Source of the DNA: Pseudodesulfovibrio sp. zrk46
GTDB lineage: Bacteria; Desulfobacterota; Desulfovibrionia; Desulfovibrionales; Desulfovibrionaceae
Assembly (NCBI RefSeq): GCF_012516435.1
Contig: NZ_CP051216.1
Span: 1,800,001-1,864,000, forward strand
Length of the DNA stretch: 64,000 bases
Reading direction: 5' to 3'
Positions 20,435 to 59,610 of the stretch are shown piece by piece. The notes beneath the pieces were generated by a model. The model made no database searches. It was not told the origin of the DNA and worked only from the letters and a program-made list of their open reading frames with translations. The number at the start of each line of letters is the position of its first letter. Position 1 is the stretch's first letter. A program made the position numbers and the translations under genes.

Positions 20435-20554
20435 GGCCTGTCAGAGTGGTGCAACTGCAAGGCGACGGGGGTAATTGAAGCGGAGGCGTAGCAGCGCTAC
20501 GTCGAGCATTCAATAGTTCCCGGCAACGCAGCAGGTGTGCCGCTATCGCAAGCC
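20435..20554 (+). repeat. 120-nt palindromic element C1
   Basis: Outer arms GGCCTGTCAGAGTGG and CCGCTATCGCAAGCC pair (with G.U); conserved blocks are GCAAGGCGACG, GGAGGCGTAGCAGCGCTACG and CAACGCAGCA. The inner arm is GGGGGTAATTGAA paired with TTCAATAGTTCCC, unlike any other copy. It lies between the cysS stop and its terminator. Confidence 0.75.
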
Positions 20555-20565
20555 GGGGAGCGAGC

Positions 20566-22023
20566 TTACAGAACGTCCCAGGTGGCACCCTGCGGGGTAT
20601 CCTTGACCTCGACCTTCATCTCAACCAGCTCGTCGCGGATGGCGTCGGACTTTTCAAAGTCCTTGTTCGCGCGGGCTTCCTTGCGGGCGTCGAGGAGCTC
20701 CTGCACTTTGGCGGGATCGATGCCGGCGCGGGAGGCGCGGTTGTCGCGGAGTTCAGTGAGGAACTCGGCGGGGACGCGCTCGAAGATGCCGAGGACAGAG
20801 CCCCAGACCTTGATGTCTTCCTTGATACGGTTGAACAGGTCGCGGCCGCCTTCGGACTTGCGCAGGTTCTTGTCTTCGCAGATACGACCGGCAAGGCGGA
20901 TGGCGGAGAAGACGTGGCCCAGAGCACCGGCGGTGTTCATGTCGTCTTCCATGGCCTCGTTCCAGTGCTTCTCGATCTCGTCCAGTTCAGTGACGAGCTC
21001 TTCCGGGAACGGAGACTTCTTCCACTTGGACTTGGACAGCTCCACATCCACCTGAGCCAGTGCGGAGTACACGCGCTTGATGCCCTTTTCGGCTTCTTCG
21101 AGAGCGTCGAAGGAGAAATCGAGGGGGCTGCGGTAGTGCATGGTCAGCAGGAAGTAGCGCAGGGTTTCGGGCAGGAACTTGTCCAGAATGTCGCGGATGG
21201 TGAAGAAGTTGCCAAGAGACTTGGACATCTTCTCGGAGTTGATCTGTACGAAGCCGTTGTGCACCCAGTAGTTGGCGAACGGCTTGTCGGTCGCAGCTTC
21301 GGACTGGGCGATCTCGTTCTCGTGGTGCGGGAAGGAGAGATCCTGACCACCGCCGTGGATATCCAGCGGCAGGCTCACGTACTTCTCGGACATGGCGGAG
21401 CACTCCAGGTGCCAGCCGGGACGGCCTTCGCCCCACGGGGAGGTCCAGGACGGCTCGCCGGGCTTGGCAGCCTTCCACAGTGCGAAGTCCAGCGGGTCCT
21501 GCTTTTCTTCGCCCGGTGCGATGCGTGCGCCGGAATCCAGCTCGTCGATGTTGCGGCCGGACAGCTTGCCGTAGCCTTCAAAAGAACGGACCTTGAAATA
21601 TACGTCGCCGGACGGAGTGGCGTAGGCGTGGTCCTTGTCGATGAGGTGCTGAGTCAGCTCGATCATCTCACCGATGTGCTCGGTGCACTTGGGCTCCACG
21701 TCGGGACGCAGCACAGCGAGGTTGTCCATGTCCACATAGAACTCTTTGATGAACTTCTCGGCGATGTCGCCGGCGTCTTTGCCCACCTCGTTGGCGCGCT
21801 TGATGATCTTGTCGTCGATGTCCGTGAAGTTACGGATAAAGGTGACGTCCAGACCCTTGTGACGCAGGTAACGGTAGAGCACGTCGAAGACCACACTGGA
21901 GCGAGCGTGGCCGATGTGACAGTAATCGTAGGCGGTGATGCCGCATACGTACATGTTGACCTTACCTTCGTTCACCGGGGTGAATTCCTGCTTCTGCCGT
22001 GCCAGGGTGTTGTAGAGTCTCAT
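20566..22023 (-). CDS. cysS: Cysteinyl-tRNA synthetase
   Basis: 485 aa, standard length. HIGH motif in YCHIGHARSSVV, KMSKS motif in SEKMSKSLGNF, and the zinc ligands Cys (MYVCGITAYD, LECSAM) and His (SFPHHENEIAQSE) are all present; the C-terminal anticodon-binding part ends VKDTPQGATWDVL. It charges tRNA-Cys in the cytosol. It is the last gene of a three-gene operon with ispDF and the 293-aa protein, an order common in Desulfovibrio relatives. GGAG lies eight bases before the ATG. Confidence 0.97.
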   Translation of the reverse strand: MRLYNTLARQKQEFTPVNEGKVNMYVCGITAYDYCHIGHARSSVVFDVLYRYLRHKGLDVTFIRNFTDIDDKIIKRANEVGKDAGDIAEKFIKEFYVDMDNLAVLRPDVEPKCTEHIGEMIELTQHLIDKDHAYATPSGDVYFKVRSFEGYGKLSGRNIDELDSGARIAPGEEKQDPLDFALWKAAKPGEPSWTSPWGEGRPGWHLECSAMSEKYVSLPLDIHGGGQDLSFPHHENEIAQSEAATDKPFANYWVHNGFVQINSEKMSKSLGNFFTIRDILDKFLPETLRYFLLTMHYRSPLDFSFDALEEAEKGIKRVYSALAQVDVELSKSKWKKSPFPEELVTELDEIEKHWNEAMEDDMNTAGALGHVFSAIRLAGRICEDKNLRKSEGGRDLFNRIKEDIKVWGSVLGIFERVPAEFLTELRDNRASRAGIDPAKVQELLDARKEARANKDFEKSDAIRDELVEMKVEVKDTPQGATWDVL

Positions 22024-22063
22024 TAAAATGCTCCGATAGTATTAATTCGAAATTATTACCGTT

Positions 22064-22945
22064 TTATTGAACGCCTTGGGCCGGGGCCGCTTTCACGGTC
22101 AGGTTCATAAGGCGCATATTTTCGTACACGTCCCGCCCCATGAATAAATAGAGGTAGGGAACCGGTTCTGCCGGGGTGGCCGAAATGACGATGCTGCCGG
22201 GATCGGCCACGAAATCCTTCAGGCCGAGCAGGGCGTTTTCCGCCACTTTGTTATCGCTGTTGCCAGCCATCTGAGCCTGCTTGTTCAGCTCAGAGATCAG
22301 TTCCTCAGTGGCCTGTGCCTCGGGGATTCGCATGGTCTCTGCCGCCCGCTGCATGAAGGTGCTGAAGAACGACCTGTTCATGAAGGTAAGTTCGGCATTG
22401 GCGATGCGCAACCCGACGAGTTTTTCCATACGGAACTGGTCGAGGTCAAGGTCGGTCATGGTGCCGGACAGCTCCAGCTTGCCGATCTTTTGGTCGTCAA
22501 AGGAAAAGTTGTTCAGTGTCAGTGAGTTGGCATTGGTGTCGTAGCGGTAGTCCACATACATGTCACCATTGAGGCGCTCCAGTCCGAACATGGCGGAGCC
22601 GAGGGCCAATGCGCCACCCATCTGGGTGGGAGCGTACTGCATGCCCTTGACCTGAGCGCGGATGAAGTGCGGCACCGGATTGCGTTCGTCAAAGGCGTGG
22701 ACGACGATCTCTTTGGCTGCCATCTGTTGGCCGTCGGGCAGGGTGGCGTCCACAGCGGTCAGGGTTACGGTCTGGTCGGTGATACTGACCCAGATGTCGT
22801 CGTAGGCCACTTTCAGACCATCCACTCCGGCCACGGCCTCGTTGAAGCCCTTCTCCACTTCGTGGTTCACGAACCAGACAAGGCCGCCGTAGCAGACGAT
22901 AACGAACAGGACGAAGGAGAAAACAAATTTACCAAGACGGGGCAT
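22064..22945 (-). CDS. Membrane-anchored protein of unknown function
   Basis: 293 aa. One N-terminal membrane anchor (FVFSFVLFVIVCYGGLVWFV), then a mixed alpha/beta periplasmic domain that resembles AsmA/DUF945-like proteins in its repeated short beta segments (VKVAYDDIWVSITDQTVTLT, GTMTDLDLDQF). It starts 3 bp after the ispDF stop and precedes cysS, so it belongs to that operon. The AsmA-like description is an impression; no function is assigned. Confidence 0.7.
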   Translation of the reverse strand: MPRLGKFVFSFVLFVIVCYGGLVWFVNHEVEKGFNEAVAGVDGLKVAYDDIWVSITDQTVTLTAVDATLPDGQQMAAKEIVVHAFDERNPVPHFIRAQVKGMQYAPTQMGGALALGSAMFGLERLNGDMYVDYRYDTNANSLTLNNFSFDDQKIGKLELSGTMTDLDLDQFRMEKLVGLRIANAELTFMNRSFFSTFMQRAAETMRIPEAQATEELISELNKQAQMAGNSDNKVAENALLGLKDFVADPGSIVISATPAEPVPYLYLFMGRDVYENMRLMNLTVKAAPAQGVQ

Positions 22946-22948
22946 GGG

Positions 22949-24145
22949 TTACATCTCCCTCAGTGCCGTGACGCTGGCCACGGCCTTGATGCCTTTCTTC
23001 TCGCCGGTAAAGCCGAGCTTCTCCTCGGTGGTGGCTTTGAAGTTCACCTGATGCGGCTCCAGTCCCAGCAGGCGGCAGATGTTTTTCTTGATCTGCGCAG
23101 CATGGGGAGAGAGACGCGGCACCTGTGTAATGACGGTCAGGTCCACATGGGCGATGCGTGCTTTGGCCTTGCTTGCCATGGCAAGCACTTCCTTCAGCAG
23201 CACGCCGGAGTCCGCGCCGGAAAATTTCTTGTCGGTATCCGGGAAATGGGTGCCGATGTCGCCGCCGCCAAAGGTGCCGAGTACGGCGTCGGCCAGTGCG
23301 TGCAGCAGCACATCGCCATCCGAATGGGCGATGATGGTGGGGGCACCCTGAATGGGCACGCCGCCCAGCACGAACGGACGATCGTTTTCTCGACCGAAGC
23401 GGTGCACGTCGTATCCCCAGCCCACGCACGGAACAATGGTCTTGGTCTCGGCCAGACGTTCCAGATCTTCGGGGTTGGTGATCTTGATGTTGCCCTGTTC
23501 GCCGGGGATGACTGCCACGTCGGCCAGTCGTTCCACCATGGAGGCGTCGTCCGTAACTTCCCAGCCCTCGGCCACGGCCTTTTCATGGGCCTCGATCAGG
23601 AGCTTGGTTTCGAACGCCTGCGGAGTCTGTACGCCGCGCAGTTCGGAACGCTTCAGGGTCTCGGTGACGGTGTCGCCGTCCACGCGCTTGATGGTGTCCG
23701 TTACCTTGACGGCTGGGATCACGCCGCGTGCGCCTTCATTGATGGCGTCGATGAGGCCGGTGATCAGGCTGGCGGAAACAAAGGGGCGGGCAGAGTCGTG
23801 GACCATGACTGCCTGGCATTCGCGGGGCAGTTCCTTGAGGCCGTTGAAGACCGAGTCCTGTCGGCGTTCGCCGCCGGCACAGACGGTCCACTTGATGCCC
23901 AGATCTTCGGACTTGAAGTACTGGCGCACCTGCTTTTCCATGGCAGGGGCATCATCGGGCGGGAATACGAACACCACACCCTTGACTCCGGCTACGCGGG
24001 AGAATGTTCGGGCAGAGTGCCAGAACAGGGGGGCGGATTTGTATTCCAGATACTGCTTGCGCACGCCACCGGCGGCTTCTGCCAACCGGGTGCCGGAACC
24101 TGCGGCGAGGATGATTCCCCAACAATTGTTCAACGGACGGTCCAT
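22949..24145 (-). CDS. ispDF: Bifunctional IspD/IspF of the MEP isoprenoid pathway
   Basis: 398 aa from MDRPLNNCWGIILAAGSG, preceded by GAGGAATCC; 20 in-frame codons upstream run into rnpB and are excluded. Residues 1-235 are IspD (nucleotide-binding LAAGSGTRL, VHDSARPF): 2-C-methyl-D-erythritol 4-phosphate cytidylyltransferase. Residues from about 240 are IspF (GWGYDVHRF, HSDGDVLLHALADAVLG, DIGTHFPDTD): the cyclodiphosphate synthase, with metal-binding Asp and His in DVH. The fusion skips the IspE step between them, as in many alpha/delta/epsilon bacteria. First gene of the operon with the 293-aa protein and cysS. Confidence 0.96.
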   Translation of the reverse strand: MDRPLNNCWGIILAAGSGTRLAEAAGGVRKQYLEYKSAPLFWHSARTFSRVAGVKGVVFVFPPDDAPAMEKQVRQYFKSEDLGIKWTVCAGGERRQDSVFNGLKELPRECQAVMVHDSARPFVSASLITGLIDAINEGARGVIPAVKVTDTIKRVDGDTVTETLKRSELRGVQTPQAFETKLLIEAHEKAVAEGWEVTDDASMVERLADVAVIPGEQGNIKITNPEDLERLAETKTIVPCVGWGYDVHRFGRENDRPFVLGGVPIQGAPTIIAHSDGDVLLHALADAVLGTFGGGDIGTHFPDTDKKFSGADSGVLLKEVLAMASKAKARIAHVDLTVITQVPRLSPHAAQIKKNICRLLGLEPHQVNFKATTEEKLGFTGEKKGIKAVASVTALREM

Positions 24146-24164
24146 GGATTCCTCTATGTAGATG

Positions 24165-24196
24165 TAACCGGGAGGACGTCTGTCCTCCCGGTTACC
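24165..24196 (-). terminator. Hairpin between rnpB and ispDF
   Basis: Perfect 14-bp stem GTAACCGGGAGGAC/GTCCTCCCGGTTAC with loop GTCT, starting 10 bases after the rnpB 3' end. No U-run follows, so it may end rnpB by pausing or protect its 3' end from processing. Confidence 0.55.
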
Positions 24197-24205
24197 AATA
24201 TTCAA

Positions 24206-24566
24206 TTGGAGTCGGCCGATAAGCCGGGTCTTGTTCCCCTTACGGGGCGACTGTCATTCATCTAGGACGACTGTTACCAGCCGCCTCAAGCAACCTACCC
24301 GGTAGCTCGGTCGGGTCGACCTACAGCGCTACCCTATTTGGTCTTGCTCCGGACGGAGTTCACCTGGCCTGCCATGTCACCATGACAGCCGGTGGGCTCT
24401 TACCCCACCCTTTCACCCTTACCGCCGGGCCGAAACCCGGAGGCGGTCTACTCTCTGTTGCACGTGACGGGAATCGCTCCCCCTGGGAGTTACCCAGCGT
24501 CCTACCCTGCGGAGCCCGGACTTTCCTCCCCGAGACAAGCTCGCGGCGACAGTCTGGCCAACTCCA
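24206..24566 (-). ncRNA. rnpB: RNase P RNA (type A)
   Basis: Bacterial RNase P RNA landmarks occur in order on the minus strand: GAGGAAAGTCCGGGCTCC, a P10/11 region with AGGGTGAAAGGGTG, GGTAAGAGCCCACC, GGAGCAAGACCAAATAGG, GGGTAGGTTGCTTGAGG and CTAGATGAATGACAGTC. The ends pair as P1: GGAGTTGGCC at the 5' end and GGCCGACTCC at the 3' end. About 361 nt. It is the catalytic RNA that removes 5' leaders from tRNA precursors. Repeat C2 lies only about 16 bases upstream. Confidence 0.97.
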
Positions 24567-24582
24567 AATTTTCGTGTGCCCC

Positions 24583-24702
24583 GGCTTGCGATAGCGGCGC
24601 ATCTGCTGCGTTGGCTGAATTGAGTCTGTCCTCGGCGAATCGGGGTACGCCTGTGGGAAACTCAAATTCATCCGCCTTGCAGATGCGTCACTCTCCCAAG
24701 CC
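24583..24702 (-). repeat. 120-nt palindromic element C2 (just upstream of rnpB)
   Basis: Minus strand: GGCTTGGGAGAGTGACG pairs with the end CGCCGCTATCGCAAGCC. Conserved blocks GCAAGGCG and CAACGCAGCAGATG are intact; the inner arms are GATGAATTTGAGTTT and GACTCAATTCAGCC. The apical GGCGTAGC hairpin is degraded to AGGCGTACCCC. Confidence 0.7.
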
Positions 24703-24868
24703 TCACGTCGGTATTACCGACGGGCTATATTTCAATCATGTTCCTCTTGCGTGAAGCGGCTCGTTTGTACTCGCCTTTCGGTCACAAAGAGGATTTTGTG
24801 AGATTACACGGACAATGTCTTCGTAATCTCCATACGCACCAGCAGCCGTACTCCTGCGCCCGCACTTA

Positions 24869-24989
24869 GGCTTCCAAGAGTGGTGCAGCTGCTAGGCGAC
24901 AGGCACGATTCATCCGGAGGCGTAGCCCAGCTACGTCGAGTGATTGAATCGCGCCTGGCAACGACGCAGATGCGCCGCTATTGGAAGCC
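24869..24989 (+). repeat. 121-nt palindromic element C3
   Basis: The outer arm GGCTTCCAAGAGTGG pairs with CCGCTATTGGAAGCC; the CCA/TGG here replaces GTG/CGC of C5, a compensatory change. Inner arms: CAGGCACGATTCA and TGAATCGCGCCTG. Apical CCGGAGGCGTAGC..GCTACGTCGAG. It ends one base before the stop codon of the zinc-ribbon gene. Confidence 0.75.
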
Positions 24990-24990
24990 G

Positions 24991-25713
24991 CTATTCAGCT
25001 TCTTCGGCACGCACCCAGTGAATGAGGCGCTGACAGTTGGGGCAGCTGAGGATCTGCTGGCCTTTCTGCAGGTCATTGTAAATCTGGGGCGGAATCATGA
25101 TGTGGCAACCATGGCAAACGCCGTTGGTCACAGGTACGATAACCGGGTTCTCCATGCGCTCACGGATGAACTCGTAGCGACCGAGGATCGGCGGCGGAAC
25201 GACCTTGCAGGCCTTCTTGCGCTTGCGGTTCAGAGAATCGAGCTTCTTGTTGGCAGCGGCCAGACGCTCTTCCAAGGTGGTCTTCAGAGCTTGGTACTGC
25301 TCCTTCACACCGCTCATCTCTTCGTTGAGATCTTCGGTGGCGCCGGTCTGGCGTTCCATCTCTTCCTTGACTGCAACCTGCTCTTCTTCGCGCATGCGGT
25401 TGAGCTTTTCCAGGGAATCCATCTCACGCATCATTGCGTGGTATTCCTTGGTGTTGCCCACGAGCATCAGCTTGTTCTTGGCCTTCTTGATCTTGGAGTC
25501 GTCTTCCTCGATTTCGACGCCCAGCTTCTTCTGCTGGTCCTTGAGGATGTCCATGCGCTCGTCGATCTGAATGCGACGTTCCTTGAACTCTTCCAGCTGC
25601 TCTTCGAGGCCGACCAGCTCCTTGGGAGCCTGTTCGATCTCTTCCTGGAGAACGATGATCTCGTCATCCACCTGCTGCAGGATGATCAGCTGCTCAATCT
25701 GTTTCTCGTACAT
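24991..25713 (-). CDS. Coiled-coil protein with C4 zinc ribbon
   Basis: 240 aa. Residues about 1-170 are a long coiled coil (QQKKLGVEIEEDDSKIKKAK, NRMREEEQVAVKEEMERQ). The C-terminal domain has the C4 zinc ribbon: CHGCHIMIPPQIYNDL and CPNCQRLIHW. Proteins of this family (zf-RING_7, CT398 type) are conserved in delta- and epsilon-proteobacteria and chlamydiae; CT398 interacts with sigma-54 and the secretion machinery. The function here is unproven. It is followed by the Nif3-like gene on its 5' side. Confidence 0.85.
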   Translation of the reverse strand: MYEKQIEQLIILQQVDDEIIVLQEEIEQAPKELVGLEEQLEEFKERRIQIDERMDILKDQQKKLGVEIEEDDSKIKKAKNKLMLVGNTKEYHAMMREMDSLEKLNRMREEEQVAVKEEMERQTGATEDLNEEMSGVKEQYQALKTTLEERLAAANKKLDSLNRKRKKACKVVPPPILGRYEFIRERMENPVIVPVTNGVCHGCHIMIPPQIYNDLQKGQQILSCPNCQRLIHWVRAEEAE

Positions 25714-25763
25714 AATGGTTACCTCACTAATTTATTAACTCACGCCTTGGGCGCGGTTCCTTC

Positions 25764-26762
25764 CTACTGTTTGACGTGGAACTGGAACGGATCCACGCCT
25801 TGGAAAAATTTTACTTCCACACCATCCAGTTCGCCGTCCAACTCGGCAGCGAACCGACGCATCATCTCTTCTTCCAGAGAAAAGTGTCCTACATCGACCA
25901 GGCAGATGGGCGTCTCAACGGCCCCGTGGTACTTCACGTCGCCGGTCACGAGCACGTCTGCGCCTGCTTTGGCCGCCTTGCCAACCAGAGAAGAGCCGGA
26001 GCCTCCGCAGTACGCCACACGTGTGACTGTCTCGGGCTGCTTGCCGGAGAAAGAGAACACTTCGCAGCCGGTCAGCTCGGCCAGCTTGTCGGCGAAGTCT
26101 TCCCACTGCATGGGCTCGGGCAGGGTGCCTACCTCGCCAAATCCCACGTCGGAGCGCGGGCCGGTCAGGGAGCGGATGTAGAAGAGCGGGCGTTTGCCCA
26201 GTGAAAATTCAATGCCCGAGGCTATCTCGCCCCAAGCCGATTCGTCGCAGATCACGCGAACCTCGCCCGCGTTGCTCTGGGAGACAGAGTGGATACCTGC
26301 GTGGTTGGCCCATACATTGGCGGTCTCGCGCTCGATGGGCTCGTTCACATGGAACGATACTTCGATGGGCGTGGCGCTGTGCTCCACTTCCAGAAAACGG
26401 GTGTCTGTCAGACCCAGGTCCTGTCCCAGCCAGAAGGCCGGGCCGCCGGGACGGGTATCCAGAGAGGTATGTGCCGAGTAGAGAACTGCGCCTGCGTTCA
26501 TGACGCTGCGGACCACTTCCCAGTACATCCCGGTGCTGTCGAGTGGCTTGGGCTTCATGTAGAGCGGGTGGTGGGTCAGGATTGCGCCTGCGCCCCAATC
26601 GAGGCATTTATCCACCATCTCAGGGGTCGGTTCCAGGCAGACGGCAACCTTGTCCGTCTCCTCCAGAGCCGCTGCGATCTGTACGCCGCAGTTGTCCCAG
26701 GATGACTGATTCTCTTCAGGAGCCAATTTCCTGAAAAATGGCAAAATATCCTTAATTTTCAT
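25764..26762 (-). CDS. Nif3-like dinuclear metal-centre protein
   Basis: 332 aa. Nif3/YbgI/YqfO family landmarks: N-terminal QSSWDNCGVQI, metal-binding ILTHHPLYMKP (His pair), SAHTSLD and GGSGSSLVGKAAKAGADVLVTGDVKYHG near the C-terminus, and a final Glu/His metal region DVGHFSLEEEMM. The family forms hexamers with two metal ions in a channel. Suggested roles include GTP cyclohydrolase or metal chaperone, none settled. About 50 bp upstream of the zinc-ribbon gene, so probably one operon. Confidence 0.88.
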   Translation of the reverse strand: MKIKDILPFFRKLAPEENQSSWDNCGVQIAAALEETDKVAVCLEPTPEMVDKCLDWGAGAILTHHPLYMKPKPLDSTGMYWEVVRSVMNAGAVLYSAHTSLDTRPGGPAFWLGQDLGLTDTRFLEVEHSATPIEVSFHVNEPIERETANVWANHAGIHSVSQSNAGEVRVICDESAWGEIASGIEFSLGKRPLFYIRSLTGPRSDVGFGEVGTLPEPMQWEDFADKLAELTGCEVFSFSGKQPETVTRVAYCGGSGSSLVGKAAKAGADVLVTGDVKYHGAVETPICLVDVGHFSLEEEMMRRFAAELDGELDGVEVKFFQGVDPFQFHVKQ

Positions 26763-26941
26763 ACGTTTACTCTACTTCACCTGAAAGAGAATGCTCCCGT
26801 ACGGTGAACCCGGCGGGAGCATTGTATTCCTCATCTATATCCCAGCCATTTTTGGCCTTCGCGGGATACTTCAGGATATATGCGTTGAACAGCGTTCCTG
26901 TATCGTATGGTATCAATAACATCTCCCGTCACGGGGAAAAA
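26763..26941 (-). other. Leader of the Nif3-like gene with hairpin
   Basis: A hairpin AATGCTCCCG/CGGGAGCATT (26790-26823) is followed by TTCTCTTT on the minus strand. It may end the tRNA transcript or act as an attenuator in front of the Nif3-like gene. Confidence 0.4.
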
Positions 26942-27017
26942 TGGTAGGCCAGGCAGGATTCGAACCTACGACCGACCGGTTATGAGCCGGTGGCTCTGCC
27001 AACTGAGCTACTGGCCC
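26942..27017 (-). tRNA. tRNA with CAT anticodon (elongator Met, or Ile2)
   Basis: 76 nt with encoded CCA. Acceptor GGGCCAG/CTGGCCT, D-arm GCTCAGTTGGCAGAGC, anticodon stem CCGGCT-CAT-AACCGG, T-arm GTAGGTTCGAATCCTGC. The acceptor begins with G1.U72, so it is not an initiator. CAT fits elongator Met most likely; an Ile2 tRNA with lysidine is possible. Confidence 0.9.
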
Positions 27018-27070
27018 AAGTTACGAGCTCGACACTGTAGACGTGCTTAGTGCGCTTTGTCAAGTGCTTC

Positions 27071-27192
27071 GGCTTGCGATAGTGGGCCATCTGCGCATTT
27101 TTCGTGCACCGCCCGGTCCTCACCGCAGCTGGGCTACGCCTCCGGCCGGTCGGCACCCGAGAAAATGCACAGCTGCCCCACTCTCACAAGCC
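27071..27192 (-). repeat. 122-nt palindromic element C4
   Basis: Minus strand: GGCTTGTGAGAGTGGGGCAG pairs with CCCACTATCGCAAGCC. Inner arms GCATTTTCTCGGGTGC and GTGCACGAAAAATGC differ completely from the other copies but pair with each other. Apical CCGGAGGCGTAGCCCAGC is intact. It lies between a 73-aa membrane protein gene and the tRNA. Confidence 0.75.
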
Positions 27193-27272
27193 TCACGGCG
27201 TGGGGGAAAGAGGGGGGGGCTTCGTTTGGGGGAGCGGTGAAGGGCGCTTCGCTGCTTCACCTTTTGGGGGAA

Positions 27273-27494: not shown

Positions 27495-27536
27495 GATCCC
27501 ATGGTAGTTCAAGAGCGGGGTTGTATCAACCGTGGG

Positions 27537-29230: not shown

Positions 29231-29235
29231 TTTGC

Positions 29236-31244: not shown

Positions 31245-31371
31245 CCGTTGGTGTCAAAAAGGTGCAAGTGCAAGGCGTGGCGGAAACGACAAGGCCGACG
31301 CGTATTAAATATACGCGAGGGTTTGTCGTTTCCGTTACAACGAAGCAATTGTGCTTTTTTCACACCAATGG
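31245..31371 (+). repeat. 127-nt palindromic element C6
   Basis: Outer arms TTGGTGTCAAAAAGGTGCAA and TTGTGCTTTTTTCACACCAA; inner arms GGAAACGACAA and TTGTCGTTTCC; apical hairpin GCGTATTAAATATACGC followed by GAGG. Conserved blocks GCAAGGCG and CAACGAAGCAA remain. It lies between the divergent copZ-like and uvrA genes. Confidence 0.7.
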
Positions 31372-52011: not shown

Positions 52012-52091
52012 TTCAGTTCCGCAATAAAATACAATATCGGTCGGCCCGGTTCATCCATACTCCTCCCAGATAATTGAGAGGAGAGTATTTC

Positions 52092-53030
52092 ATGACCAAA
52101 GAAATGGGGCCGGGCGCAACTGCCGTGGCCGAAACATCGTTGATGCAGCGGACCGTTGACCGTTTGGGGTCCGGCCTGCTCGCCGCCCTGTGCCTGACCG
52201 GAGCTGTTTTGCTCTGGGGTACATCCTTCATGGCTACCAAGTCCGCCTTGGCCGGATTTGCACCCATGATCGTCATCTGGCTGCGCATGTTCTTGGCCTC
52301 GCTCATCGTGGCCGTGATCTGGAGGCGTATCCCAGCGCCCGACTATCGCGCCGGGGATTGGAAGGTGCTTGCCTTCCTCTGTCTGATGCAGCCGTGTTGC
52401 TATTTCTTACTGGAGGGCTACGCCATCAGCCTGACCACCTCATCGCAGGCCGGGATGATCTCCGCGCTCGTGCCGCTGTTGGTGGCGGTAGGAGCATGGG
52501 CAATATTGAAAGAACCCATGTCCGCACGCGGTGTGGTCGGCCTGCTCGTTTCCATCGGTGGTGTCGTCTGGCTTTCCATGGGCGGGGCTTCCGGCGAGAA
52601 TGCACCTAATCCTGCCCTCGGCAATCTGATGGAAGTGGGTGCCATGATCTGTGCCGCCATCTATATGGTGGTGCTCAAGCGGCTGTCCGTGCGCTACTCC
52701 ACATGGTGGCTGACCTCCATGCAGTGTGTGGTGGGCGCGGTGTTTTTCCTGCCGTGGGCGTTGATGACGGGCGGGTTCCCGTTTGGTTCGGTGCCCATGT
52801 CGGCATGGTTGGCGGTGGGATATTTGGGGCTGTTCGTGTCGCTGGGCGCATTCGGGCTCTATAATATGGCCATGACATTCATGCCTGCCGGGAAGGCGGC
52901 CTTGTCGATTAATCTTGTTTCGCCAGTGGCGTTGATTGCTGGTTGGTTGATGTTGGGGGAGACACTGACTTTTGCTCAGATCGCAGCGTGTTGTGTGGTT
53001 GGGGGTGGGGTGTTTGTGGGGAGGAAGTAG
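52092..53030 (+). CDS. DMT/EamA-family transporter
   Basis: 312 aa from MTKEMGPGATAVAE (AGGAGAG upstream). Ten hydrophobic segments form two EamA repeats: CLTGAVLLWGTSFMATKSAL at the start and NLMEVGAMICAAIYMVVLKR after the middle. Typical of metabolite or amino-acid exporters such as RhaT/YdcZ-like proteins. Probably regulated by the adjacent AraC protein. Confidence 0.9.
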   Translation: MTKEMGPGATAVAETSLMQRTVDRLGSGLLAALCLTGAVLLWGTSFMATKSALAGFAPMIVIWLRMFLASLIVAVIWRRIPAPDYRAGDWKVLAFLCLMQPCCYFLLEGYAISLTTSSQAGMISALVPLLVAVGAWAILKEPMSARGVVGLLVSIGGVVWLSMGGASGENAPNPALGNLMEVGAMICAAIYMVVLKRLSVRYSTWWLTSMQCVVGAVFFLPWALMTGGFPFGSVPMSAWLAVGYLGLFVSLGAFGLYNMAMTFMPAGKAALSINLVSPVALIAGWLMLGETLTFAQIAACCVVGGGVFVGRK

Positions 53031-53097
53031 GAAAGGCAGAAGTGGAGGCGGCTTATCAGCCGCGATTTGATGAGGAGTAGCGCGTCTTCGACGCTTG

Positions 53098-53447
53098 AGA
53101 GTCGTCGCTTTGCTCCTCCATGCCCTCCCGGCGGGGTTCTTTCTTGGCTGAGCCGCCCCAAGAAAGAACCAAAGAAACTCGGCTTTGTGTGCTTGGCCGC
53201 CTTCTGCTCACTCGCTAAGAATCTGATCCAAATAGAATACCTTTAATCATTATTCGCGACTATCGTCGCTGCCTAACGTATAGTTGATCAGCGGCATTCT
53301 ATTTGGTCAGCTTCTAGGCTCGTGTTCAAGGGCTGGTGTAGGGCTTCGTTTGGATAGGATGAAAATTTATTGGGCTCTGAGATTTATCTTTTTCTAGTAA
53401 CTTCGCGCGTAAGCGCCAATGGGATTCCAAAGGCCCTCGGCCTTTGG
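53098..53447 (+). repeat. Dispersed intergenic repeat family R1, copy B
   Basis: Same order of blocks as copy A (8291-8762): GCTCCTCCATGCCCTCCC, a perfect 13-bp hairpin GGTTCTTTCTTGG/CCAAGAAAGAACC (10-nt loop), ACTCGGCTTTGTGTGCT, ATCTGATCCAAATAGAATAC with its inverted partner GCATTCTATTTGGTCAGC, CGTGTTCAAGGGCTGGTG and CCAATGGGATTCCAAAGGCC. It fills the convergent gap between the DMT gene and the phosphotransacetylase-like gene. No gene is seen in 53031-53575. Confidence 0.7.
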
Positions 53448-53527
53448 TCGGGTGCAGGGGTGAAAACCCTGCTAGTCCATTCTTCATCCCGCTCGTCAGA
53501 GCGGTTTCAAGACCTGATTTCATAAAA

Positions 53528-53555
53528 AAAGGCCGCCTCGGTTGAGACGGCCTTT
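53528..53555 (-). terminator. Terminator of the acetate-metabolism operon
   Basis: AAAGGCCGCCTC-GGTT-GAGACGGCCTTT with one mismatch; minus-strand U-run TTTTTTT. It lies 21 bp after the stop of the gene at 53576. Confidence 0.8.
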
Positions 53556-53575
53556 GGGATTGTATTGCTTGTGCC

Positions 53576-54640
53576 TTACTTCAGGCCCAGCTCGCTGCGG
53601 AGGTGGTGGAAGTCGATGTTGTCGGCAACGAGTTCGGCACCCTGCTTGATCTTGATGGCGTCGCGCAGCTTGTGGCGGGAGAGGATGTCGTCCATCTTCT
53701 TTGCCACGGTGAAGGTGTCTTCGCGGACCATGATGATGGGCGTTTCGAGCACCTCGGAGCGGGTGAGGATGATGTCGTTGGGGTAAAGATTACCGGTCAG
53801 AACGAGACAGGGGCAGTCGCCTTCGAGGGCGACGAGCTGTACGTCGGAACGGTCACCGCCGACGATGATGGCGGAGTTCTTCTTCTTGCGGAAGTGGGTC
53901 ATGAAGTTTTCAACCTGCATGGTACCGATGAGGAAGGACTCGACCACGCGTTCGGACTTGTTGTGCGCGGAAATGATCTTGCCGCCGAGACGATCGGCCA
54001 GGTCGCCCACCTTGATGGCGCCCATGAGAGGATCGTGAGGGATGACACCGAGAATCTTGACGCCTTTGTTTTCGAGGGCGGGACCGAGCAGCTGCTTGAT
54101 CTCGTCCATGAAGTGGGGCGGCACGTCGTTGAGGATGACACCGGCGAGGAGATCGCCGAGGTGTTCCTTCATCATCATGAGGTAATCGTATTTCAGTTCT
54201 TTCTGGAAACGATCGATGATGATGGTCTTGATGCCGAGCTTCTTGATGACGGAGACGGCGTCGGTGTCACAGTACTTGCCGGAGTACATGGAGCCGGAAC
54301 CGGCCACGAGGGTGATGTCCTTGGACTCGGAGATGGCCTTGTAGCCGTCCACGATCTTGTCGAGGAGTCCTTCCATCTTGCCGGTGAAGGCCTTGACCTT
54401 GAAGTCCTGAGTGACGACCACGGGGGTGACGAGCTCGGGGTCTTCGGATACGCCGAGGACGTCCTGCACAAAGGCAGCGTCTTCATCGCCCAGCTTGCCG
54501 TCGATCTCCATGGGCATGGCGCCGACCGGTTTCATGTAGCCGACGTTGAAGCCTTCTTTCTGAAGACGAAGCCCCAGACCCATGACGATCATGTTCTTGC
54601 CTGAGTACCCGGTTGTCGAGCCTATGTAGAGTCCTGCCAT
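53576..54640 (-). CDS. BioD-like/DRTGG phosphotransacetylase-associated protein
   Basis: 354 aa, AGGAGGAAC before the start. N-terminal P-loop NTPase fold (BioD/AAA_26): GLYIGSTTGYSGKNMIVMGL; DRTGG domain from about residue 205 (KILGVIPHDPLMGAIKVGDL, IISAHNKSERVVESF, IIVGGDRSDVQLVALEGDC). This is the N-terminal region of long Pta enzymes, without the catalytic acetyltransferase domain. It is found in front of or behind ADP-forming acetyl-CoA synthetases in delta-proteobacteria, where it probably regulates acetyl-CoA/acetyl-phosphate use. Confidence 0.85.
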   Translation of the reverse strand: MAGLYIGSTTGYSGKNMIVMGLGLRLQKEGFNVGYMKPVGAMPMEIDGKLGDEDAAFVQDVLGVSEDPELVTPVVVTQDFKVKAFTGKMEGLLDKIVDGYKAISESKDITLVAGSGSMYSGKYCDTDAVSVIKKLGIKTIIIDRFQKELKYDYLMMMKEHLGDLLAGVILNDVPPHFMDEIKQLLGPALENKGVKILGVIPHDPLMGAIKVGDLADRLGGKIISAHNKSERVVESFLIGTMQVENFMTHFRKKKNSAIIVGGDRSDVQLVALEGDCPCLVLTGNLYPNDIILTRSEVLETPIIMVREDTFTVAKKMDDILSRHKLRDAIKIKQGAELVADNIDFHHLRSELGLK

Positions 54641-54711
54641 GCCTATGTTCCTCCTGAGTATGAAGCGTCGGATATGTCTGCGCTACCCAACTGTATAACA
54701 TTGCGAAAAAA

Positions 54712-56814
54712 TCAGCCTATGGTCAAGCGAAGGTCGGTGACCAATGCGCCTTCGGCGTTTACCAGGATCGGATTGAGCTCCGCCTCCTGAATGTCCGGGA
54801 AGTCCGATGCCATCTGTGACATGGACAATAAAATATCTTCGATGGCTGCTAAATCCACCGGGTCTTCGCCGCGCGCACCGCGCAACAGCGGGAAAGATTT
54901 GATCTCGCGCACGATGTCCTGCGCGTCTTGCAGGGTCAGCGGCGCGAGGCGGTAACTGATGTCCTTGAGCACTTCGGCGGACGGCCCTGCCAGCGAGAAA
55001 GAGATGAGGGGACCGAACTGCGGATCCTGCGTGAACTTGACCACCACTTCACGTGCCTTGGTCGGGCCCATGGTCTGGACAAGACAACCGGCGAGATACG
55101 CGTCGGGGCGTTTGCGCTGGGTGCGGGTGGTGATATCGAGCCATGCGTCACGCACTTCACGCGGGGTGTGCAGGTCGAGGGCCACGCCGTCCACGTCGCT
55201 GCGATTGGCGATGTGGGGCGAAACGATCTTGAGCGCCACGGGGTAGCCGAGCTTCTTGGCTGCGCGCACTGCCTGATCACTGGTACGAACAAGGCGTGTC
55301 TCCGGGATGGGCAGCTCGTAGGCCATGGCCATGTCCATGGCGTCGGCAAAGGGAAGCTCCTTGAGCCCGATCTTGCGAGACTTGCGGATGAGACGTTCGG
55401 CCTTGCCCTTGTCACGGCGGAAACACACTTCCACTGGGAAGGGGCGATGGCGCCAGCTGTACTGGGCGTGCATGGCCGAGATGGCGCGGATGGCGGGCTC
55501 GGGATAACCGTAGCAGGGAATGCCTGCGGCCAGCAGCATGTCGCGGCCGGGGCCGATTCGCTCATCGCCCATGAAGCAGGCGAAGATCGGCTTGTCGCAA
55601 TCCTTGGCCACTTCGATGACGGCCTGGGCGGTCTCTTCGATCTCAGCCGATGCCGTGGGCGTCAGCAACACCATGATGGCGTTGGTAAATTCGTCGGTTG
55701 CCACTGCCTCGAGAGTGACGCGGTAGCGGTCTGCCTTGGCATCGCCGATGATGTCGATGGGATTGTATATGGCGGCAAAGGGCGGCAGGGCTTCGGACAG
55801 GATGTCCAAGGTCTTCTGCGCCGGACGGGCCAGATGCAATCCTGCGCCTTCACAGGCATCGGCAGCCAGAATGCCGGGACCACCGGAGTTGGTGACAACG
55901 GTCAGATTCGGGCCTTCGGGCAGGGGCTGGGTGGCAAAGGCGCGGGCAAGGTCGAACAGTGCTTCCAGATCGTGAACCTGAATGATGCCTGCCTGTCGCA
56001 GGGCAGCGGTGGAGGCCACCACGGAGCCAGCCATGGAGCCGGTATGGCTCGACGTGGCGCGTGCGCCGGACTGGGTGGTACCCGCCTTAATCATGATGAC
56101 CGGTTTCTTTTCGGTCACCAGTCGGGCCTTGCGGAGAAATTTTTCGCCATCGTCCACACTTTCGAGGTAGCCGATGATGACCTTGGTCTCGGGATCGTCG
56201 CCCAACGCTTCGAGGACGTCGGCCTCGGACAGGCCCGCCTTGTTGCCGAGGCTCACGAACTTGGAGAAACCGATGTTCTCGCCGTCGGCCCAATCCAGAA
56301 TGGCGGAACAGAGTGCGCCGGACTGGGAAAAAAATGCGATGGAGCCCTTGGCGGGAGATGCCTGCGCAATGGTGGCGTCCAGACCGTTCTCGGTATTAAC
56401 GAGGCCAAGAGAGTTGGGGCCGAGGAGCGTGATGCCCTTTCGGCGAGCGAGATCGGCCATGGCCATTTCCAGCTCAAAGCCGTCGCGACCGGTCTCACGG
56501 AAGCCCGCGGTGATGACGCAGATGGCCGAGACATTGGCCGCTGCCAGATCTTCCATGGCGGTCAGAACTTTCTCGCGTGGCAACGTGATGATGCCGAGGT
56601 CCGGCGGTACTGGCAGATTGTCGGTGGAGGTGGATACTTCCAGTCCGAGGATTTCACCGCCTGCGGGATTGACGGGAAACAATTTCCCCTTGTACCCTGC
56701 GCGCAGAATGTTGGACATGATGACATGGCCGAGTTTACCCGGATGTCTCGATGCACCGACAACGGCAATGGAGTCGGGATTGAAAAGGTGCTTTAGTTTC
56801 GCGTTTGATTGCAT
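54712..56814 (-). CDS. Acetate--CoA ligase (ADP-forming), fused alpha-beta subunits
   Basis: 700 aa. Order of domains: CoA-binding (LFNPDSIAVVGASRHPGKLG), the second CoA_binding/succinyl-CoA ligase-like domain (GPNSLGLVNTENGLDATIAQ, with the phospho-His region FSQSGALCSAILDWADGENI), then ATP-grasp from about 480 (KLGYPVALKIVSPHIANRSD) ending in the LNPILVNAEGALVTDLRL motif. It converts acetyl-CoA + ADP + Pi to acetate + ATP, or the reverse. ATP from acetyl-CoA is valuable for fermenting or sulfate-limited cells. The start has no ribosome site; its ATG is 17 bp from the divergent rnc ATG. Confidence 0.92.
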   Translation of the reverse strand: MQSNAKLKHLFNPDSIAVVGASRHPGKLGHVIMSNILRAGYKGKLFPVNPAGGEILGLEVSTSTDNLPVPPDLGIITLPREKVLTAMEDLAAANVSAICVITAGFRETGRDGFELEMAMADLARRKGITLLGPNSLGLVNTENGLDATIAQASPAKGSIAFFSQSGALCSAILDWADGENIGFSKFVSLGNKAGLSEADVLEALGDDPETKVIIGYLESVDDGEKFLRKARLVTEKKPVIMIKAGTTQSGARATSSHTGSMAGSVVASTAALRQAGIIQVHDLEALFDLARAFATQPLPEGPNLTVVTNSGGPGILAADACEGAGLHLARPAQKTLDILSEALPPFAAIYNPIDIIGDAKADRYRVTLEAVATDEFTNAIMVLLTPTASAEIEETAQAVIEVAKDCDKPIFACFMGDERIGPGRDMLLAAGIPCYGYPEPAIRAISAMHAQYSWRHRPFPVEVCFRRDKGKAERLIRKSRKIGLKELPFADAMDMAMAYELPIPETRLVRTSDQAVRAAKKLGYPVALKIVSPHIANRSDVDGVALDLHTPREVRDAWLDITTRTQRKRPDAYLAGCLVQTMGPTKAREVVVKFTQDPQFGPLISFSLAGPSAEVLKDISYRLAPLTLQDAQDIVREIKSFPLLRGARGEDPVDLAAIEDILLSMSQMASDFPDIQEAELNPILVNAEGALVTDLRLTIG

Positions 56815-56831
56815 AGACCGCAGGAGGTTGA

Positions 56832-57515
56832 ATGGATACAGGTGACCTTCAGGATTGTATTCACCATAGGTTTGACCAAGTCAAGCTTCTCACCACCGCG
56901 CTGACGCATAGTTCTTACGCCAACGAACAGGAGTGCAATGACGACAACGAGCGTCTTGAGTTCCTGGGCGATGCCGTATTGGAGCTGTGTATTTCCGAAG
57001 AAGGCTTTAAACGCTTTCCGGAAGCGCCCGAGGGGCAGCTGACACGGATCAGATCCCAGTTGGTTAAGGAAAAGAGCTTAGCAACCTTGGCTCGGGAAAT
57101 GAAATTAAACAAGTATATTCTGCTCGGCAAGGGTGAAGAATTGCAGGGCGGCCGTGAACGCGACGCGCTGCTGGCCGATGCTTTCGAGGCCGTGCTGGGC
57201 GCGGTTTTCCTCGACGGGGGGTTCGAAGCCGCCAAGCAGACCATACTGCATGTCTTCCGTGACAAATGGCCTGAGCAGGCCAAGGTGCCGGAAACAAAAG
57301 ACTATAAAAGTCGATTACAGGAAGTCTCGCAGGACCGTTTCAAGGACCGTCCCATTTATGCCCTTGTCGGGACCAGTGGCCCGGAACACGAAAAAGTCTT
57401 CGACGTGGACGCCACCCTGCCTACCGGCGAAGTTTTTCGCGGCAGCGGCTCCAGCGTGAAACGCGCTGAACAGGACTCTGCCATGAGGGCATTGGATTAT
57501 CTGTTTGATATGTAG
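56832..57515 (+). CDS. rnc: Ribonuclease III
   Basis: 227 aa, GCAGGAGGTTG before the ATG. RNase III domain with the signature [20 protein letters not shown] (catalytic Glu/Asp) near residue 40 and [20 protein letters not shown] near 115; C-terminal dsRNA-binding domain ([20 protein letters not shown], then [20 protein letters not shown]). It processes rRNA precursors and some mRNAs. Many of the long hairpin elements in this window would be its natural substrates if transcribed. Confidence 0.96.
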
Positions 57516-57544
57516 CTGACAAAGACTACACCGGAACCAAAAAG

Positions 57545-57580
57545 AAACTCCCCGGCTGCGAAAGCGTCCGGGGAGTTTTT
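57545..57580 (+). terminator. rnc terminator
   Basis: AAACTCCCCGG/CCGGGGAGTTT stem with 12-nt loop followed by TTTTT; ends one base before element C7. Confidence 0.85.
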
Positions 57581-57703
57581 CCTGTTGTGGAGATTGGTTC
57601 GAGTGCGAGGCGCAAGCAACATGATGGGCCGCCGCGTACGCCAGTACGCAAGGGGCAGCATGTTGCGCAGCAACGAAGCAATCGGGCCAATATCCGCAAC
57701 AGG
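57581..57703 (+). repeat. 123-nt palindromic element C7
   Basis: Outer arms CCTGTTGTGGAGATTGG and CCAATATCCGCAACAGG; inner arms GCAACATGATG and CAGCATGTTGC; apical GCGTACGCCAGTACGC followed by AAGG. Conserved blocks GTGCGAGGCG and CAACGAAGCAA remain. It lies between the rnc and flagellin terminators, in a convergent gap. Confidence 0.65.
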
Positions 57704-57710
57704 AAACAAC

Positions 57711-57752
57711 CGGAATCGAGCTCGGGGGTGTGTGCCCCCGAGCGGGATTCCG
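57711..57752 (-). terminator. Flagellin terminator
   Basis: Nested stem CGGAATC/GATTCCG outside CTCGGGGG/CCCCCGAG; minus strand continues GGTTGTTTCC. It is 32 bp after the flagellin stop. Confidence 0.65.
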
Positions 57753-57783
57753 ATTGTCTTCAGTCGTATGATGTGTCTTACGA

Positions 57784-58719
57784 CTAGCCGCCGATGAGCT
57801 GCATGGCCATTCTCGGCAGAGAGTTGGCCTGTGCCAGCATGGCAACAGCGGACTGGGTGAGGATCTGGTTGCGGACGAATTCCGTCATTTCAGTCGCCAC
57901 GTCGACGTCAGAAATACGGGATTCTGCAGCCTGCAGGTTCTCGGACTGGATTTCCAGGTTGGTGATGGTGTTTTCCAGTCGGTTCTGCATGGAACCAAGG
58001 TTAGCGCGGATCTTATCCTTGGAGATAATGGCGTTGTTAATCGCCGCCATGGCAGCCTGCGCCAGCGCCTGGGTGGAGATCGCCTTACCCGCATTGATCT
58101 CCTCGGTGGTGCTACCGGACTTGGCGGCAGCAGCGTGACCGAGGCCGAATGCGGATGCAGTCGATCCCTGAATGGCAATGTAGTAGTAATCCTCGGCAGA
58201 GTCGTTACCGGTACCGAAGTGAATCTTCAGCGGGCCAGTGGACGAAATGCCGCGACCATTGTGCGGGTTGGTCGCAGAGCCGAGGTCACCGGAAAGGTTA
58301 CCATTCAGGAGGTAAATTCCGTTGAAGTCGGTGGCAGTCGCGATACGATTGATTTCCGAGGACATAGCCTGGTACTCGGAGTCAATGATCAGACGCTGGT
58401 CGGAGTTGTAGGTACCGGTGGAAGCCTGCATCGCAAGTTCCTTCATGCGAATGAGCTTTTCATCGATAACCTGCAGCGCGCCGTCAGCGGTCTGAATCAG
58501 GGAGATCGCATCGGATGCGTTTCGGATGCCCTGGTGCAGAGAGCTGATTTCCGAACGCATGAGTTCGCGAATCGCCAATCCGGCAGCGTCATCAGCAGCC
58601 GTGCCGACACGCAGACCGGAAGACAAACGCCTGGTCGAGACACCCAGACGACCATAGTGGTCAGTCAGGTTTCTCTGGGCGTTCATCGCCATGAGGTTGT
58701 GGTTAATGACTAAAGACAT
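57784..58719 (-). CDS. fliC: Flagellin
   Basis: 311 aa. Standard N-terminal D0/D1 region MSLVINHNLMAMNAQRNLTD and SSGLRVGTAADDAAGLAIRE; short variable centre (about 150-200); C-terminal region AESRISDVDVATEMTEFVRN and QILTQSAVAMLAQANSLPRM ending LIGG. It polymerises into the flagellar filament after export by the type III apparatus. The protein is small, with little D2/D3. A sigma-54-like promoter lies upstream (58766-58781). Confidence 0.96.
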   Translation of the reverse strand: MSLVINHNLMAMNAQRNLTDHYGRLGVSTRRLSSGLRVGTAADDAAGLAIRELMRSEISSLHQGIRNASDAISLIQTADGALQVIDEKLIRMKELAMQASTGTYNSDQRLIIDSEYQAMSSEINRIATATDFNGIYLLNGNLSGDLGSATNPHNGRGISSTGPLKIHFGTGNDSAEDYYYIAIQGSTASAFGLGHAAAAKSGSTTEEINAGKAISTQALAQAAMAAINNAIISKDKIRANLGSMQNRLENTITNLEIQSENLQAAESRISDVDVATEMTEFVRNQILTQSAVAMLAQANSLPRMAMQLIGG

Positions 58720-58765
58720 CTGAACCCTCCTTGTTCGATCGTCAAATCCATTTGCGCTTTCTTAA

Positions 58766-58781
58766 GCAGCATGTGTGCCAA
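58766..58781 (-). promoter_or_regulatory. Candidate sigma-54 promoter of flagellin
   Basis: TTGGCACACATGCTGC on the minus strand: TGGCAC at -24, N10 between GG and GC. The expected start point is about 36 bases before the ATG. Confidence 0.6.
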
Positions 58782-58964
58782 CAATGTTTTATTAAGTAAT
58801 ATTAAGCCTGTATCCATCTAAATAAAGTCTAGAAAGGCCATATTTACCGGGGGGCGAAGGGGGCAGAAAGTGCCGATTGTCAAGGGTTTGGCAGCTTGGC
58901 AGCAAAAAATGCCTGTTTGAAAATGGCTGATAAAAGGTAAAGAAAGGCAAGGAGAGCTACGCTG

Positions 58965-59375
58965 ATGACTATTCAATATAAAGACACCAAGAGCATTGAT
59001 GCGGCAGCACTGGGCGCGCTCTATCAGGCCCAGGGGTGGAAGTCCGGCGACTTCCCCGAAACCATCGCCAAGGCCATGGAGGGCTCCGACTTGGTCATTT
59101 CAGCCTGGGACAAGGACAGACTCGTAGGATTGGCTGCAGTCCTGTCTGACGGCCATCTGGTGGCCTATCTGTCCTACCTGCTGGTGCACCCCGACTACCA
59201 CGGTCAGGGGATCGGCCACGGCATCATGGAACGGTTGGTAGAGCGTTACAAACACGTCCTGCGCAAAGTTCTCATCTCCTTCGATGAGAAATGCGGCTTC
59301 TACGAACGTTACGGCTTCAAAGGCAACAAAACCCGAACCCCCATGTACCGCCGCGAATACGACACGGACTACTGA
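58965..59375 (+). CDS. GNAT-family N-acetyltransferase
   Basis: 136 aa, AAGGAGAG upstream. GNAT fold with acetyl-CoA loop HPDYHGQGIGHGIMERLVER (Q-x-x-G-x-G/A) and the C-terminal FYERYGFKGN motif. Acceptor unknown. It lies alone between the divergently read flagellin and the flgE operon; a role in flagellar protein acetylation cannot be shown. Confidence 0.88.
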   Translation: MTIQYKDTKSIDAAALGALYQAQGWKSGDFPETIAKAMEGSDLVISAWDKDRLVGLAAVLSDGHLVAYLSYLLVHPDYHGQGIGHGIMERLVERYKHVLRKVLISFDEKCGFYERYGFKGNKTRTPMYRREYDTDY

Positions 59376-59490
59376 TTTTTGCGATAGCCCTTCCCCAAAA
59401 AAACACCCTGAGGGCCTTGGGTGCGCAGCACCCAACACCGGGTTAACGCCCACCGCCCCAAGCAAGATATTCTTATCCCCGACCACGTGA

Positions 59491-59610
59491 GGCTTGTGAG
59501 AGTGGTGCAGCTGCAAGGCGACGGGCACGATTCACCCGGAGGCGTAGCAACGCTACGGTGAGGATTGAATCGCGCCCGTCAACGCAGCAGATGCGCCGCT
59601 ATCGCAAGCC
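59491..59610 (+). repeat. 120-nt palindromic element C5
   Basis: Best-preserved copy. Outer arms GGCTTGTGAGAGTGG and CCGCTATCGCAAGCC; inner GACGGGCACGATTCA and TGAATCGCGCCCGTC; apical CCGGAGGCGTAGCAACGCTACG followed by GTGAGG. Between GNAT and the flgE terminator. Confidence 0.8.

Follow-up and report, generated by a model that had tools for sequence, protein, structure and literature searches.

Seven long palindromes in a Pseudodesulfovibrio genome as probable mobile elements of the ERIC family

What kind of element keeps a constant core while the stems around it change in sequence and stay paired? The question is raised by seven palindromes, C1 to C7, in a 64,000-nucleotide (nt) stretch of Pseudodesulfovibrio sp. 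zrk46 DNA (the window), which comprises bases 1,800,001-1,864,000 of the single 4.08-Mb contig. The seven copies are probably short non-autonomous mobile elements of the miniature inverted-repeat transposable element (MITE) type that belong to the ERIC family and use their arms as terminal repeats for resident transposases. The established part of this answer consists of the architecture, the covariation, the similarity to the ERIC profile, the spread across phyla, the high copy number, the filled and empty sites and the TA ends. A mobile-element origin, which the first-pass annotation of this DNA did not see, explains most of the pattern. The copies are listed below with their scores from R1, a covariance model built from alignment A3, which holds 16 copies without inserts from this genome alone, C4 left out, with one written structure of 48 pairs.

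C1: 20435..20554, plus strand, subfamily A copy, folds, R1 score 118.5 bits
C2: 24583..24702, minus strand, subfamily A copy, R1 score 96.2 bits
C3: 24869..24989, plus strand, subfamily A copy, R1 score 121.9 bits
C4: 27071..27192, minus strand, inner stem replaced and AAGGCG/CAACG loop absent, R1 score 71.7 bits
C5: 31246..31370, plus strand, subfamily B copy, folds, R1 score 93.4 bits
C6: 57581..57703, plus strand, subfamily B copy, R1 score 75 bits
C7: 59491..59610, plus strand, subfamily A copy, R1 score 131.4 bits

Architecture, covariation and copy number

All seven palindromes are present where the first-pass annotation had placed them and each folds as one long hairpin of 119-125 bp. 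The ends given for six copies agree with the ends of the stems, and only those of C5 had to be moved, to 31246-31370. R1 picks up all seven in the window with E-values of 3.9e-17 or better, the E-values of this model and of the wider model R2 being rough owing to a short calibration. Six of the seven copies are among the 16 training rows of R1, which leaves C4 with its 71.7 bits as the sole independent test.

The conserved blocks around which the stems were said to vary are not universal, C4 lacking both loop blocks. GCAAGGCG is exact only in C1, C2, C5 and C7 (C3 reads GCTAGGCG and C6 GCGAGGCG), CAACGCAGCA is exact only in C1, C2 and C7 (C3 reads CAACGACGCA, C5 and C6 read CAACGAAGCA) and GGCGTAGC is exact in C1, C3, C4 and C7, with GCGTA present in all seven. 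The loop of C4, whose difference the first-pass annotation missed, is replaced by base pairs, and its inner stem recurs in three other copies, at genome positions 687856, 694972 and 724349, so that C4 represents a sublineage and not a one-off compensation.

The proposal that the stems co-vary finds support in three alignments. In A3, 88.1% of the paired cells hold standard pairs, better than the 74.8% of shuffled sequence, and the proportion is 29-40% when the partner is slid by one to three columns; both sides have changed in 30 of the 48 pairs, compared with 15.6 in the shuffles. A4 consists of 103 aligned cross-phylum matches, contains no enterobacterial locus and is the training set of R2. 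Its input was 96 of 119 loci collected with a two-block search pattern, and since the 23 dropped loci either gave no early strong match or were enterobacterial, A4 is selected for good matches; it also includes three opposite-strand rows (L162, L184 and L192) and one identical pair (L091/L138). The covariation score of A4 is 0.584, against 0.157 for shuffled and 0.05-0.10 for slid versions, and doubly changed cells number 1,323 against 421 in shuffles. In the third alignment, A5, which comprises eight loci linked to purH, is fitted to R2 and shares three loci with the R2 training set, 31 of 48 pairs covary. The two-block pattern itself gives 16 matches in the genome and none when reversed.

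Two sequences, GCAAGGCG and CAACG.AGC, are invariant in A4 and were both imposed by the search pattern, while the GGAG/GAG that flanks the hairpin, with a conserved TA step, is invariant independently of it. The core can be written as AAGGCG, inner stem, (G)GAG-hairpin-(T)GAG, inner stem and CAACGMA, and it sits between two mutually pairing outer arms in an element of about 115-146 bp. When arms are deliberately mispaired the outer score is 4.6 as against 12.4 observed, but only 45 of 117 loci lie beyond the 99% point of this control, which is inflated by related loci.

The many genomic copies expected from a covariance-model search of the whole genome were found, with R1 returning 86 rows that merge into 67 distinct copies once opposite-strand doubles are joined, a count that rests on 150 of 1,425 first-look candidates scored. 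The weakest copies are truncated or carry an insert, and most are intergenic as judged with a crude caller of open reading frames (ORFs). Two main subfamilies are recognised, A (C1, C2, C3 and C7, with C4 by its arms) and B (C5 and C6), together with mosaics, identified by eye, that pair B-like arms with an A-like core (for example at 757909, 565449 and 1721753). Within A, copies that are otherwise nearly identical diverge at positions 6-8 of the outer stem and, jointly, at the matching complement. In six of the 67 copies, drawn from both subfamilies (genome 929873, 967558, 1036051, 1352391, 1595744 and 2526756), the CA^ACG loop carries an insert of about 53 nt with the sequence ..CCTGAGGC.TAAGATCTTGTA..CACTTA. 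As an aside, this insert has the look of mobile sequence nested in mobile sequence.

Relation to ERIC and spread across bacteria

ERIC elements have been in use for typing since the 1990s and carry an internal insert of about 70 bp at a fixed site. The Escherichia coli ERIC fetched for comparison (L072) reads GGAAGGCGGC...CCAGGAGCTTACATAAGTAAGTGACTGGGGTGAG...GCCAACGCA, with its blocks and their order as in the window elements. ERIC, or RU-1, shares with these elements its size of about 120-127 bp, the single long palindrome, the intergenic location, the multiple copies, the block order AAGGCGG..CAGGAG-hairpin-GTGA..GCCAACGCA and the insertion at a fixed internal site, whereas its host phyla, its outer arms and the sequence of its inner stem are different. 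A TA target duplication is reported for ERIC in PMC2759123, and copies with TA at both ends, which may reflect such a duplication, are seen in two relatives here.

R2, which contains no enterobacterial training locus, finds the E. coli ERIC L072 with an E-value of 5.9e-7 in 22,928 bases searched, as well as an Enterobacter locus (4.6e-12) and a Kosakonia locus (1.5e-10). In all, five of six sources are recovered, L072, L274, L117 and L144 at E ≤ 1.6e-6 and L276 at 0.0022, with no R2 match in L275. The first-pass label "ERIC-like" is hereby borne out beyond what its reader could reach, and we conclude that ERIC and the window elements form one family in which ERIC is a distant branch.

As described in PMC10969869, ERIC is an element of Enterobacteriaceae and Vibrionaceae. 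This confinement does not hold, as matches occur in the family of the host, in its phylum and in the phyla of Pseudomonas and Porphyromonas. The surveys drew genomes evenly from the larger groups and applied strict filters, with no more than 24 candidates scored per genome in the family and 12 in the three phylum surveys, and the copy numbers per genome are lower bounds. A search of other Desulfovibrionaceae, which had been suggested as a check, gave R1 matches in 25 of 44 genera and in 64 of the 149 genomes sampled, and in the phylum as a whole 122 of 297 genomes (84 of 199 genera) match; the other 85 family genomes, among them the congeneric G116 and G128, gave no R1 match. R2 matches all 21 genomes that supplied loci, with 1 to at least 150 matches each, and is found in 82 of 299 genomes from the phylum of a Pseudomonas and in 50 of 296 from that of a Porphyromonas. 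Within one family the copy number ranges from 0 to more than 100.

The block pattern run over a genome collection yields at least 119 loci, and among the matches listed R1 reaches E ≤ 1e-3 in 99 of 119 (63 of 80 plus 36 of 39). According to their record titles, the matching loci belong to Desulfobacterota, Pseudomonas, Gallionella, Nitrosomonas, Geothermobacter, Acidobacteria and Nitrospirae, and further to Chloroflexi, Myxococcales, Porphyromonas and other Bacteroidota, Selenomonadales, Bacillus sp. SG-1 and several candidate phyla. Many of these records are metagenome bins in which misbinning is possible, an objection that does not extend to Porphyromonas somerae, Bacillus sp. SG-1, Desulfospira and several Pseudomonas because these are isolates. 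The same pattern gives 45 loci in a viral collection of which only three have an R1 match, and therefore the pattern does not by itself create matches. A separate observation concerns L281 of the P. viridiflava genome G438, where three copies stand in tandem with a spacing of 149 bases and the intervening DNA is repeated also.

The suggestion that the family might be undescribed is only partly sustained, since ERIC is described, yet nothing in the literature searched reports that it extends past enterobacteria and vibrios or that arms differ around a constant core. No paper placing ERIC in other phyla was found in a search that covered few subscription papers and not the primary ERIC papers, and that is no proof of novelty. 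A comparison with Rfam, likewise proposed at the outset, returned no family at gathering score for the window copies or for the non-enterobacterial elements scanned. Taken together, a known type of element gains a new and far wider range, and its core is constant.

Mobility, strand and competing explanations

Comparison of orthologous sites provides filled and empty states. C2 lies 17 nt upstream of rnpB on the same strand, in a gap preceded by a Zn-ribbon gene, and the Zn-ribbon gene precedes rnpB in all 30 genomes of the genus. Where no element is present the gap measures 11-76 nt in 25 genomes and 184 nt in one, compared with 186, 334, 380 and 425 nt in the four genomes with an element; in all four filled sites (L327, L330, L336 and L339) the element stands 16-22 nt before rnpB and on its strand. 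In G091 and G468 further elements are situated just after rnpB, where they have an inverted order or lie on the opposite strand when compared with the upstream element. Between the RNase III and flagellin genes, the site of C6 holds an element in this genome and in two of seven relatives, G468 and G091, and is empty in the other five (G072, G128, G139, G148 and G471), and the arms of the G468 copy at this site are different yet paired. For the E. coli ERIC, a search for an empty site gave no two-piece match among 30 listed of 5,407 records.

Fresh copies show where the element ends. In G545 (142 bp) four of four and in G557 (140 bp) five of six such copies have TA on both sides in differing surroundings, and the arms of copies of this type read GGGCGTGTTGACAT.... 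The right end of the Porphyromonas copies, TGCAACAGTCTC, agrees in 11 of 12 letters with the right repeat of the IS5-family insertion sequence ISPg4 as given in a table of PMC4596501, CGCAACAGTCTC, a comparison made at one end of the Porphyromonas copies. In their end repeats, the parts compared, the Porphyromonas copies resemble ISPg4 and the P. gingivalis MITEs (MITE464/MITEPgRS and BrickBuilt); BrickBuilt has 23-nt tandem repeats and the elements here do not. In two further Bacteroidota, G866 (L387-L394) and G886 (L395-L404), the hairpin is embedded in a repeat unit of greater length whose end repeats are different, CCCG[C/G]ATTATTCAC...GTGAATAAT[G/T]CGGG, which we take to be IS1380-like.

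Among candidate movers, an IS630-type (IS630/Tc1-mariner) transposase was rejected, the DDE_3 domain (PF13358) being found in none of 12 same-genus genomes, the host included. A search for an annotated plasmid element with the G557 arms gave core matches only and no match to the end repeats, and no mover of ERIC is named in the literature examined. The first-pass statement that none of the copies carries a transposase is correct, every copy being too short for a transposase gene.

It is proposed that resident insertion sequences provide transposases in trans and that these use the outer arms as terminal inverted repeats, which would account for the differences in arms between lineages. Insertion at TA-containing targets would place copies behind stop codons and in intergenic gaps, while selection would preserve a fold of the core that forms on a single strand, either RNA or single-stranded DNA; our preferred guess is that the core is bound by a structure-binding factor of the host or of transposition. 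The proposal is grounded in the finding that one core occurs with differing arms and end repeats. Copies lie between convergent genes at 19 sites and between divergent genes at 5 (p 0.007), an excess that fits insertion tolerance.

The strand on which the fold is kept was read from imperfect pairs, since a structure formed on one strand predicts more G-T pairs than A-C mismatches on that strand. Across 35 copies from the host genome the outer stem has 87 G-T pairs and 7 A-C mismatches (34 and 7 minus two inherited columns), with 39 against 4 in A3 and 128 against 33 in A4, and in the apical stem of A4 the numbers are 87 and 13. This excess makes it probable that selection keeps the fold of a single strand, be it RNA or single-stranded DNA. 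The structure postulated by the first-pass annotation is hence backed by the outer and apical stems but not by the inner helix.

At eight distinct loci (L103, L185, L283, L286, L364, L365, L366 and L106; seven of Pseudomonas type and one from a Cryptobacteroides bin) an element directly follows the stop codon of purH on the opposite strand, purH being identified by Pfam in L364 and L106 and by a C-terminal motif in the other loci. In G439 and G622 the purH-linked element is the sole match reported in the genome. Seven of the purH rows contain 36 G-T pairs and one A-C mismatch. A purH mRNA would contain the opposite strand and hence not the selected fold, which is either a separate transcript or single-stranded DNA.

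Several points weigh against mobile elements of the ERIC family as the explanation. On the side of mobility, the flanking TA could belong to the element itself since no empty site is seen for the TA-bounded copies, the hairpin in the longer unit of G866 and G886 may be nested or captured as a passenger, and no transposase is tied to the subfamily of the window genome, for which neither exact ends nor a target duplication can be defined. On the side of kinship, R1 missed the E. coli ERIC L072 at E ≤ 10 and only the wider R2 found it, and L274, with its R2 E-value of 1.6e-6, is aligned out of register. On the side of structure, pairs changed on both sides in A4 number 46 of 48, barely better than the 43.8 of the shuffles, and the inner helix has no G-T excess, with 9 G-T against 17 A-C in A3 and 58 against 68 in A4. 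Finally, retention at purH in many Pseudomonas loci hints at host use over plain mobility.

The competing explanation that survives best, although it is considered unlikely, is a structured regulatory RNA that spreads by duplication and acts in cis on the stability, termination or processing of neighbouring transcripts, with direct selection on the stems. It would account for strong covariation at orthologous sites, for the G-T excess of one strand and for the recurrent positions 5' of rnpB on its strand (all four upstream copies) and 3' of purH (eight loci). Also in its favour, the Rfam small RNA models V_AS5, Ysr49 and CssrA, which derive from transcript surveys, overlap ERIC sites at scores below gathering (L072 1459-1582 and L144 2635-2801). 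These models match neither the window copies nor the non-enterobacterial elements scanned. They seem to include sequence of ERIC, so that some catalogued small RNAs may be transcribed ERIC copies. Regulation in cis is harder to reconcile with the structured strand at purH being antisense to the mRNA, with the range of copy numbers within one family, with the position of C6 after the T-run of a terminator (flanks inspected by eye) and with the lack of an orientation preference relative to flanking genes (15 versus 18, p 0.73, where both flanks agree and with a crude ORF caller).

There is a small chance that an undescribed system which recognises structure, be it a recombinase, a reverse transcriptase or another enzyme, moves the core while each arm acts as template for the copying or repair of the other. 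Such a system would explain why near-identical copies in the host genome change outer-stem positions 6-8 jointly with their complements and why only the core loops are constant in sequence across phyla. However, fresh copies in any one genome have constant arms with a sharp boundary at TA, as ordinary terminal repeats do, and no such enzyme was found in a search limited to PF01797 and PF13358.

REP elements and REPINs, which are moved by RAYT proteins, resemble the present elements in being palindromic, intergenic and multicopy but measure 20-40 bp (PMC3733652) as opposed to units of 119-125 bp. It is very improbable that the elements are, by analogy, folded single-stranded DNA moved by a Y1 (HUH) transposase. 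A hairpin recognised by its structure and a G-T excess compatible with single-stranded DNA would suit this mechanism, yet the Y1 domain PF01797, present in 51 of 149 family genomes, is absent from six same-genus genomes with 15 to at least 24 element matches. Nor is the replication-strand bias expected of single-stranded transposition significant (27 versus 40, p 0.14), and the GTAG/CGTC tag was unseen, no dedicated search for it having been made. Closer in size and intergenic location are the stem-loop families of Petrillo and Cozzuto (2008), as given in PMC2267715 and PMC2718517, such as the intergenic 124-nt Ppu-9 of P. putida and, from the same sources, R30/R178 of P. fluorescens, likened here by description and not by sequence. 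That the palindromes arose by chance, or reflect an artefact of aligning a high-GC genome, is refuted, for although the R1 scores of the six copies on which the model was built are circular, the reversed pattern and 85 of 149 family genomes give no match and the slid and shuffled controls of A3 and A4 score lower.

Mobile elements of the ERIC family thus stay the favoured explanation, and a broader version of it is offered tentatively, namely that ERIC is a local branch of a pan-bacterial element whose constant structured core has been adopted by several unrelated families of insertion sequences, each mobilising it with its own end repeats, and some of whose copies, at purH and rnpB, are used by the host. 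If this is true, few structured mobile RNAs or single-stranded DNAs of bacteria would be as widespread as the core. If ERIC is one branch, the cross-phylum comparison sets the essential parts, the two conserved internal loops and the apical hairpin, apart from both stems, which are free to change. It also supplies a defined motif for a search for binding proteins, fresh copies with sharp ends, natural pairs of filled and empty sites at rnpB and rnc, and a model for the annotation of thousands of unannotated intergenic elements.

Surroundings of the seven copies

The neighbours of the copies and other features of the window are as follows.

19600-20292, minus strand: 230-aa ORF beside C1
Ending at 20566, minus strand: cysteinyl-tRNA synthetase gene, the other neighbour of C1
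24204-24565, minus strand: rnpB, the RNase P RNA gene (Rfam RF00010, 312.5 bits)
24991-25713, minus strand: Zn-ribbon gene (PF02591), its stop codon adjoining C3
26945-27017, minus strand: tRNA near C4
30322-30400, minus strand: c-di-GMP-I-GGC riboswitch, score above the gathering threshold
56832-58719: segment with C6, the RNase III gene on one side and the flagellin gene on the other
Either side of C7: acetyltransferase gene and flagellar hook gene

The earlier statement that all copies are intergenic is close to correct. Two ORFs without a Pfam match are touched, one of 477 aa whose 3' end shares about 36 nt with C5 and one of 433 aa that C3 overlaps; the neighbour of C3 that Pfam does support lies on the opposite strand and terminates shortly past the element. 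The presence of a long hairpin, C6, beside the gene of a double-strand RNase, RNase III, is maybe a coincidence.

Along the chromosome the copies cluster on the side of the origin, with 57 of 67 no more than a quarter genome from the DnaA-bearing skew flip at 1.3 Mb and none between 2.95 and 3.86 Mb on the AT-richer terminus side. DnaA-domain genes are present at genome positions 1315707 and 3870562, the weaker match being located at the origin indicated by GC skew and the stronger one far off.

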